From the NCBI GenBank assembly GCA_036268875.1, contig DATATI010000020.1:124001-188000 (forward strand): a stretch of DNA of 64,000 nucleotides. The letters are read 5' to 3'. A model generated the notes under the pieces. It ran no database searches, was not told the origin of the DNA, and saw nothing but the letters and a program-made list of their open reading frames with translations. Below, piece after piece: positions 41,750 to 44,296 of the stretch (the stretch's first letter is position 1; each line of letters opens with the position of its first letter). Origin of the DNA: Polyangia bacterium. Lineage in GTDB: Bacteria; Myxococcota_A; Polyangia; Fen-1088. The translations under genes were made by a program, and so were the position numbers.

Positions 41750-41887
41750 GGGCCGCACTGTCGCATCGATGCCGAGGGCGATGCAATTCGGCCGACCACG
41801 ATGCCGCCGGCTTCCGCGCAAGCGACCGAGAACAAAGCCTTTGTCTCAAGTCCGCCCGCGTGACCGCCGACGATGGTTGCAATCACC

Positions 41888-44296
41888 ATGCGCGTCCTTC
41901 GCTCGCTCGCCTCATCGATCTTCCTAGTGGTCGCTGCCGCCACCGCGGTCGGCTGCGGCATCTCCAAGCCCGCCGTCGACGGGACCGGTGGAACCGGCGG
42001 CGACGGCAGCGGCGTGGCCTCGCGCCTGCCGCCTGCCCAGCGCGGCGAGCACCTGGCGGTGTCGATCATCGGCCCTTCGCCCGACGACGACATCACCACC
42101 ACCTCGTCGGCCATCACGCTCGACGGGTTGGCCTTCGGCGCACCCAGCGAGGTGCACTGGCAAGGCCCGGCCGGCAATGGCACCGCCGACGGCACGCAGA
42201 ACTGGGCCGCCACGGACATCCCACTCGTCGCTGGCGAAAACTTCATCACCATCGACGCCGTCGCCTCCAACGGTTCGCACGCCAGCAAGAGCGTCGTGGT
42301 CCGCCGCAACACCTTCCTCGGTTTTCTCGGGCACCCGCAGCTGACCCCGTCGTTCGCCTTCGTCGGCGACGACACCGAGGTGATCGTCAGCGTCGGCATC
42401 GACACCAGCATGGCCGGCCTCAATTCGGCCAGCTTGAAGCTGGCCCAGGTTGATCCCTCGGGCGGCATCGCCGGAATGATCTCCAGCATGGCGGACGACG
42501 GCGACTTCGGGAACAGCGGCGACGAGATCCCCGGCGACGGCGTCTACTCGGCGCGCTTCCGCATCACCAAATCCACCGAGAGCGCGCTGACCCTGGCGGT
42601 CACCGCCACCGACAGCACCGGCGCCGCCAGCGAGGTGGCGGCGATGGGTTCGGTGCCCTTCGTCTCGCACGCCACGGACGATCAGCTGACCGGCGCCGCC
42701 GCCACCGTCTCCAACATGGAAGAAAGCTTTCAGGCCGCCAAGACCACCGGCGATCTGACCATGGCCTATGGCGCGGCCACCGCTGCCGCCGCGGCTGATC
42801 CGAACGTGTCGAACAGCGGCGTGTCGGCGGGTGGCAGCGGCACCTGGGCCGTCTCTACCGCCGGGATCATCGCCGGCATGCTGGACAGCGGCAACAACGA
42901 CGAACGCGGCAGCGTCGAGATCGGCAACCACGCCAGCTTCTGCGGGGCCGCCAACGACGCTGACTTCTCGCCCACCGACGAGAGCGCCGACGCTGGCACC
43001 ACCCTGGGCGGCCGCAGCTGCCCGGCCTACGACGTCAGCGACGTGTTCCGCGACGAGGACGTCACCATCGATCGTCTGCGCACGCTGACCCGCCACGGCC
43101 TGGTCTTCCTGACCATGCACGGCACGTCGTACGATGATCTGCCCAACACGCCGGCGGCGCAGCAGCTGCCCGCGCACGAATTCCTGCTGACCAGCGAGGA
43201 GGTCACGCCCGCCTCGCTGCGCAAGTACGAGCTCGAGCTCAAGACCGGGCAGATGGCCGTCGGCCCGACGGTGGCAGGCGCGCAACGCTTCTTCATCACC
43301 CCCAAGTTCATCGACAACCTCCCCGGTCGCTTTCAAAACAGCCTGATCTACGTGGGGGCCTGCCGCAGCTTCTGGAACGGTGAGTTCGCGGCCGCTTTCC
43401 TGCGCAAGGGCGCCGCCGCCTTCTTCGGCTACTCGGACATGGTGAAGAGCGCCTTCGCCTACCAGACCGGCATGGCGTTCTTGCAATGCTTGCTCAACGA
43501 CCACAACGACGACGGCTCCGGTAAAAGCAGCGCCGACTGTTTCACCGCCGGCCTCCACGACGACGGTTCGGGCGACGAAAAGCGTGGCGCCCAGTGGCCG
43601 TCGACCGCCGCCTACGGCATCAAGCTGCCCAAGCCGGTCGCCGTCACCCACTTGCCGGCGTACTTCAAGATGATGGCCCGCCAGGACGTCACCATCGCGT
43701 CGGTGTCCGGGCTGCGCAACGGCGGCTTCGAGGAGATCGATCGCAGCAACGCCGCCAGCCCGCAGTCGGTGGCCTGGCAAAGCCAGGGCGACGCCCGGGT
43801 GATGTTCAACCTGGGCGGTTACCTGCCGACCGAGAGCACCAAGATGGGCCTCATCTCGACCGGCCTTGGCTTCACGCAGACGAACGGCGAGCTGTACCAG
43901 ACCTTCTGCGTCCCGGCCGGCGTCACCCAGCTCAGCTATGACTGGAACTTCATCTCGGCCGAGTTCTTGTCCTACTGCAACGATCCGCGCTACCAGGACA
44001 ACCTGGCCGTCACCATCGAAGAGACCGGTCCCGGCGGCGCGACGACGGTCCTGCAGGCGCTGAAGATCGATGACCTCTGCGCCAGCGTCGGCGATTCAAA
44101 GTTCAAGGTCCCCGACTACGGCTACGTCGACAACGACGGCAAGACCTACGCCACCGACTGGCAGCACTTCGGCCCGTTCGACATGACGCCGTGGGCGGGT
44201 TCGCCGAAGAACATCACCTTGCGCTTTGCCGTCAACGACCGCGGCGACAGCATTTACGACACCGTGGTTTTGATCGACGGCATCACGCTGCAGTAG
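41888..44296 (+). CDS. surface lipoprotein with predicted caspase-fold (clan CD) peptidase domain
   Basis: An 802-residue protein with ATG 41888 preferred (ATG 41873 also possible). Lipobox AVGC is followed by Gly/Thr linker sequence and Ig-like/calcium-binding-like segments (DDGDFGNSGDEIPGDGVYSA). Residues about 310-560 show a clan CD dyad pattern as in gingipain/CHAT proteins: HGLVFLTMHGTSYDD with His411, then NSLIYVGACRSFWNGEFAAA with Cys492 and the following AFLRKGAAAFFGYSDMV. A C-terminal beta-sandwich (about 612-802, ending DSIYDTVVLIDGITLQ) resembles choice-of-anchor-type domains. It probably acts on the cell surface. The peptidase assignment rests on motif spacing, not on known homologues. 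It overlaps the convergent hemD end by 14 bp. Confidence 0.75.
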   Translation: MRVLRSLASSIFLVVAAATAVGCGISKPAVDGTGGTGGDGSGVASRLPPAQRGEHLAVSIIGPSPDDDITTTSSAITLDGLAFGAPSEVHWQGPAGNGTADGTQNWAATDIPLVAGENFITIDAVASNGSHASKSVVVRRNTFLGFLGHPQLTPSFAFVGDDTEVIVSVGIDTSMAGLNSASLKLAQVDPSGGIAGMISSMADDGDFGNSGDEIPGDGVYSARFRITKSTESALTLAVTATDSTGAASEVAAMGSVPFVSHATDDQLTGAAATVSNMEESFQAAKTTGDLTMAYGAATAAAAADPNVSNSGVSAGGSGTWAVSTAGIIAGMLDSGNNDERGSVEIGNHASFCGAANDADFSPTDESADAGTTLGGRSCPAYDVSDVFRDEDVTIDRLRTLTRHGLVFLTMHGTSYDDLPNTPAAQQLPAHEFLLTSEEVTPASLRKYELELKTGQMAVGPTVAGAQRFFITPKFIDNLPGRFQNSLIYVGACRSFWNGEFAAAFLRKGAAAFFGYSDMVKSAFAYQTGMAFLQCLLNDHNDDGSGKSSADCFTAGLHDDGSGDEKRGAQWPSTAAYGIKLPKPVAVTHLPAYFKMMARQDVTIASVSGLRNGGFEEIDRSNAASPQSVAWQSQGDARVMFNLGGYLPTESTKMGLISTGLGFTQTNGELYQTFCVPAGVTQLSYDWNFISAEFLSYCNDPRYQDNLAVTIEETGPGGATTVLQALKIDDLCASVGDSKFKVPDYGYVDNDGKTYATDWQHFGPFDMTPWAGSPKNITLRFAVNDRGDSIYDTVVLIDGITLQ

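Follow-up and report, generated by a model that had tools for sequence, protein, structure and literature searches.

Proteases of clan CD underlie the host damage that gingipains cause, as well as chromosome separation, apoptosis and CRISPR-triggered defence, and to our knowledge exported bacterial members of the clan outside the Bacteroidota have been little described. A coherent family spanning about a dozen phyla would fill this gap among exported clan CD proteases. The putative lipoprotein described here is encoded at 41888..44296 (+) of the window, by which we mean the whole 64,000-nucleotide stretch of Polyangia bacterium DNA that was analysed. Several described systems resemble it in part. 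The CHAT peptidases (PF12770) are among the top structural matches of its catalytic domain; however, that domain has no match to the CHAT profile, and the protein is predicted to be exported and carries Ig and sandwich domains. Csx29 and SAVED-CHAT, in contrast, act inside the cell as CRISPR- or nucleotide-activated effectors. DdvA, a myxobacterial envelope protein, gives the best Foldseek match over the core, but it is a membrane-embedded anti-sigma factor with a caspase-fold domain, while the window gene lacks a sigma partner and encodes another domain layout.

The gingipain RgpB (MEROPS C25) is a secreted clan CD enzyme in which a His-Gly and a Cys follow adjacent strands, as in the window protein. 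Its P1 Arg is held by Asp163 of helix α-1, a role that an α-1 Asp likewise plays in MALT1, and the enzyme cleaves its own prodomain after Arg126 and Arg229 (PMC4357240). The window protein has an acidic α-1 residue as well, and its C-terminal sandwich is like adhesin domain K2 of Kgp. It differs from RgpB in its N-terminal lipobox and two N-terminal Ig-like domains, and in having a small pre-module where RgpB has a 229-residue prodomain. The family to which it belongs is not confined to the Bacteroidota, and C25 (PF01364) is absent from the matches listed for its 78 members at E <= 1. Finally, YabG, a proposed clan CD member, is a sporulation peptidase with Arg specificity (PMC12445089) that shares the His-Gly and Ala-Cys pairs with the window protein, but it is a spore-coat enzyme that is not exported and has a different architecture. 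Its model (TIGR02855) matches 3 of the 78 relatives weakly (best 0.0026) and the window protein not at all.

Gene, domain layout and catalytic core

The open reading frame, which is backed by collinear homologues, extends from an ATG at 41888 to a stop at 44296 and encodes 802 amino acids, with a G+C content at the third position of 0.91; an alternative in-frame ATG at 41873 is possible. The gene is flanked by hemD and a divergent membrane-protein gene, an arrangement that does not point to an operon. A function tied to adjoining genes was rejected, since the hemD, TPR, TPP-enzyme, two-component and glycosyltransferase genes share no operon with it. By inspection, a signal peptide with the lipobox A-V-G-C23 behind a hydrophobic stretch (41888..41956, +) marks the product as a putative bacterial lipoprotein, and in a crude scan 45 of 84 homologue ORFs had motifs resembling a lipobox.

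A full-length model (52-row alignment; pLDDT 82, pTM 0.83) comprises two Ig-like domains, a helical/β pre-module, an α/β core and a C-terminal sandwich. Ig-like domain 1 (residues 54-142; 42047..42313, +) resembles glucodextranase domain B, with VIA-align Z-scores of 12.4 to that domain (1ug9) and 11.1 to 8cka and a Pfam Glucodextran_B match of 21.3 bits at 64-141, below the cut-off. Ig-like domain 2 (residues 145-261; 42320..42670, +), delimited from the model and fold search, contains a weak, sub-threshold NCBIfam choice_anch_X motif at 208-227. The pre-catalytic module (residues 262-335; 42671..42892, +), a helical hairpin followed by a β-meander in the models, has conserved W320 and G326 and is a candidate prodomain. 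The C-terminal β-sandwich (residues 605-802; 43700..44293, +) is of a CBM/MAM/gingipain-adhesin-like type, with Z 12.4 to a porphyran-binding CBM, Z 10.5 to Kgp K2 and a weak NCBIfam choice_anch_L match at 678-798 (18.5 bits, below the cut-off). Sub-threshold matches to these three models were all that the profile libraries returned for the protein. The first-pass annotation had placed the core between Ig-like parts and a C-terminal anchor-type sandwich. Both flanking elements are present in the model, but the anchor label is doubtful, since the sandwich resembles carbohydrate-binding modules and the N-terminal lipobox is the probable anchor. As modelled, the sandwich is a binding-type domain, which might bind glycans, rather than a demonstrated anchor.

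When the full-length model was used as the query, the fold-search results were swamped by Ig and CBM domains, and the catalytic domain (residues 345-603; 42920..43696, +) was therefore predicted alone (model m36a9a57beab4; 78 homologues, pLDDT 88.2, pTM 0.76). With VIA-align against the PDB, clan CD enzymes led the results at Z 15-10 over about 160-200 residues: SAVED-CHAT (15.0), separase (15.0), RgpB (14.8) and DdvA (14.5), then Craspase/Csx29 (up to 12.7), mature RgpB (12.5), Kgp (12.1), metacaspase (12.1) and caspase-7 (up to 10.9). The same enzymes led a Foldseek search of the PDB with weak E-values, the best being 1.1e-3 (DdvA), so that Foldseek alone gave no PDB match at E <= 0.001. A viral fold library yielded one match at this threshold, an uncharacterised phage protein, and phmmer and hmmsearch against PDB sequences returned chance matches only. 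The predicted fold is thus the caspase/haemoglobinase fold that had been read from the sequence, and no alternative fold appeared.

The proposed catalytic residues fall where this fold places them. TMHGTSYDD begins at residue 409, which makes the His residue 411 (43118..43120, +), and the position of YVGACRSFWNGE fixes the Cys as residue 492 (43361..43363, +); AFLRKGAAAFFGY lies C-terminal to the Cys motif, as had been described. In the full-length model the two residues stand in the order H-C directly behind adjacent core strands, 405-409 followed by T-M-H-G and 486-490 followed by G-A-C-R-S. Across 78 catalytic domains from about a dozen phyla, with a mean column identity of about 26%, Gly404, His411 and Cys492 are the sole invariant columns, and Gly412, beside the catalytic His, is found in 71 of the 78. 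Both dyad residues are also invariant in 52 full-length sequences. In a broader alignment of 84 rows, one of them a truncated frame, the His is kept in 82 and the Cys in 81. The intact exceptions to the conservation expected of a working dyad are two tandem paralogues, L070:10326-13070 (+) and L060:4157-6799 (-), each directly downstream of an intact copy, which have lost both residues and the linker Arg discussed below. They form one clade, so that the loss counts as a single event, and from their sequences they are candidate pseudoproteases. Given the collinear homologues in 59 of 379 genomes of the same phylum, the 148 candidate stretches of a cross-phylum genome collection and the invariant dyad, the motif set reflects more than chance. 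We regard the clan CD fold and dyad of the window protein as close to certain, and its activity as a peptidase as highly probable. Position 413 is Thr in the window protein and usually Asp or Glu in its relatives. Members of the Myxococcota-type clade have a Cys-rich insert (weak Dickkopf/Lustrin-like Pfam matches) between the catalytic His and Cys; it maps between window residues 441 and 451, and the window protein is without it.

Linker arginine, S1 candidate and proposed mechanism

Between the pre-module and the core lies a linker that is variable in sequence and length among relatives and has a pLDDT under 50 at residues 336-346 of the full-length model. Its Arg340-Gly341 (42905..42910, +) is a candidate (auto)activation site. 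Read at a fixed offset from Gly326, the linker residue is Arg in all 53 Myxococcota-type rows, followed by Gly (46), Ser (4) or Ala (3), whereas one of the two dead paralogues has Pro and the other Ala (Arg 0/2). The window's own linker is shorter than those of its relatives, and its Arg stands one residue off the usual offset. In the cross-phylum rows the position, read by eye, is mostly Arg or Lys; the non-basic residues are Glu in L074 and L080, Asp in L108, Gln in L121 and Leu in L139.

The identity of this residue goes together with that of position 365 (42980..42982, +), at the start of helix α-1, which is acidic in 60/60 rows with a linker Arg, in 7/12 with a linker Lys and in 0/7 with a non-basic linker residue. 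Lys is combined with Val365 in Paenibacillus and one planctomycete. On the tree, the basic linker residue was lost four times independently and the acid at 365 was lost each time (sign test p = 0.125, the minimum possible for four events). In a control scan, 4 of 184 class-conserved columns deviated in all four events, namely the linker residue, 365, 684 and the gap-affected 318, and columns 493 and 524 deviated in three. Against the covariation it must be said that it rests on four events and that in pseudoenzymes constraint on all these sites would be relaxed in any case. Asp558, conserved in 76 of 78 domains, was considered as the S1 determinant and rejected in favour of Glu365, since it does not change in the lineages with an acidic linker. 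Gingipain R and MALT1 have their S1 residue on this helix, and Glu365 is a candidate for the same role, with a basic P1 residue. The window protein carries all four residues, R340, E365, H411 and C492.

The fold, the conservation of the dyad and of the linker, and the linker/α-1 covariation are computational observations. The explanation that we consider best for them as a whole, with a probability of roughly two in three, is a lipid-anchored zymogen endopeptidase of clan CD type that cuts itself after Arg340 and prefers a basic P1 residue. Such an enzyme would reside at the cell surface or in the periplasm, where Cys492, activated by His411, would attack the peptide bond that follows the P1 residue. 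Most likely the enzyme would be made as a zymogen, in which the two Ig-like domains act as spacers carrying the roughly 75-residue pre-module ahead of the core. The protein itself or a sister copy would cut the disordered linker after Arg340 (R↓GS), and this step would release or activate the core along with the C-terminal carbohydrate-binding-type sandwich. It may also detach both from the lipidated N-terminus, as has likewise been proposed for the C10 lipoprotein zymogens of B. fragilis (PMC2873492). Glu365 would form an S1 pocket favouring a basic P1 residue, like Asp163 of gingipain R. We infer self-activation at Arg340-Gly341 and the basic P1 preference from the linker/α-1 covariation and the precedents of RgpB and MALT1, and each of the two, taken singly, seems likely. 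Within the family, nature has varied the presumed activation-site residue and the presumed S1 residue in concert, and this covariation opens both the activation mechanism and the P1 specificity to direct testing.

The linker Arg could instead be structural, or be cut by another protease, in an active clan CD peptidase whose P1 residue is not basic. The further deviations of the non-basic-linker lineages at 684, 318, 493 and 524 fit this reading, as do the Paenibacillus Lys-linker rows without an acidic residue at 365. We nevertheless consider it unlikely, since the Arg is fully conserved in an otherwise variable linker and lost exactly in the dead paralogues, and since the S1-equivalent helix position covaries with it. 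A competent His-Cys domain might also serve as a surface transpeptidase or sortase, for which the gingipain-like PorU offers a comparison, or as a signal sensor, like the caspase-fold domain of DdvA, rather than as a degradative protease. The prominence of DdvA in both structural searches and the combination of a putative lipid anchor with binding domains speak for this reading. However, inspection of the neighbourhood found no sigma/anti-sigma or secretion-system cargo genes adjoining the window gene, and the covariation of linker and α-1 fits self-cleavage, which leaves these roles improbable. A non-enzymatic caspase-fold adhesin with a relic dyad would agree with the inactive copies in the family and the binding-type flanking domains, but it is very hard to reconcile with a dyad kept in 78 of 78 domains at such low overall identity, and kept in the window copy. 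The self-processing zymogen thus remains our preferred reading of the window protein.

Relatives and downstream partner genes

The gene is present as a single copy in its own genome, and its matches in the same phylum are mostly full-length and collinear, about 850-1000 amino acids long, and mostly in families other than the window's. Genomes of the same family have no match or one weak match. Among 318 genomes of the window's class, one other genome has a strong match (G477, L157; 39% identity over 756 columns). In a near genome of the window's family (G386), an 848-amino-acid protein at L162:6001-8544, whose C-terminal part weakly matches the end of the catalytic profile (E 5.8e-7), appears from its sequence to be a distant CHAT-like relative.

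A single-sequence search of genome contigs found no relatives, and a 21-member alignment used as the query succeeded where the single sequence had failed. This profile-guided scan of a cross-phylum genome collection gave 148 relatives, which include Myxococcota, Bdellovibrionota, Bacteroidota, Ignavibacteriota, Planctomycetota and Zixiibacteriota as well as WOR-3, Paenibacillus, Nitrosomonas and Photobacterium; a plasmid search found none. On the tree, the window protein is a lone long branch between the Myxococcota-type and cross-phylum clades, its exact place being unsure. The "unnamed type" of the first-pass annotation is borne out, as no Pfam or NCBIfam model matches the window's catalytic domain. 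CHAT matches 17 of the 78 relatives weakly, and L113 alone passes the cut-off (25.2 vs 24 bits). C14 caspase/metacaspase is not among the Pfam families listed for the 78 members, although the fold is shared (Z about 10-12), and a genome search, run without a positive control, found no C25 in the window's own genome. A search of open-licence papers, in which several queries were narrow, returned no account of this protease family. What emerges is a predicted caspase-fold cysteine protease family that occurs in about a dozen phyla and escapes current profile libraries.

At eleven cross-phylum loci, the protease gene is followed on its own strand, with an overlap or at a short distance, by a gene for a small protein of about 144-211 amino acids. 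These proteins form one family in which the lipobox Cys is the sole invariant column and an LxPLxG motif is frequent. They are found at L063:10051-10719, L066:9924-10424, L074:10059-10517, L080:10148-10630, L085:4665-5231, L089:10284-10904, L125:2128-2643, L135:9974-10480, L136:9878-10531, L137:9959-10501 and L140:3212-3706, in WOR-3, Brocadia, Bacteroidota, Zixiibacteriota, Hydrogenedentes and Ignavibacteriota. The L136 protein was recovered by the partner profile although it lay outside the training set, and no Pfam match above cut-off was obtained for any of the eight neighbours tested. The window has no such gene downstream, and none was found in its own genome in a search without a positive control. 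Protease genes adjoin small inhibitor genes in SpeB/Spi, staphopain/staphostatin and B. fragilis Bfp/Bfi (PMC2873492), and by analogy with these pairs it is a reasonable guess, and only that, that the partner lipoprotein is an inhibitor or chaperone. It is in this sense a candidate for a new protease-inhibitor family.

Taken together, the members may represent a hitherto undescribed family, spread across phyla, of exported and self-activated clan CD zymogens with an R↓G/S/A linker and an acidic α-1 S1 residue, from which lineages with E, D, Q or L in the linker have shifted in specificity with a changed S1. In this tentative scheme, which we put at somewhat below even odds, many non-myxobacterial members would have a downstream lipoprotein as inhibitor or chaperone and some myxobacterial ones a dead tandem pseudoprotease. 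Small putative lipoproteins without a partner-profile match also lie directly behind the protease at L113:10216-10701, L142:4328-4744 and L108:6190-6681, and are possibly diverged partners. A second kind of partner is encoded directly downstream on the same strand in one myxobacterial clade and L109 (L071, L084, L086, L092, L094, L105, L109, L128 and L133), as a homologous large exported protein of about 770-1090 amino acids.
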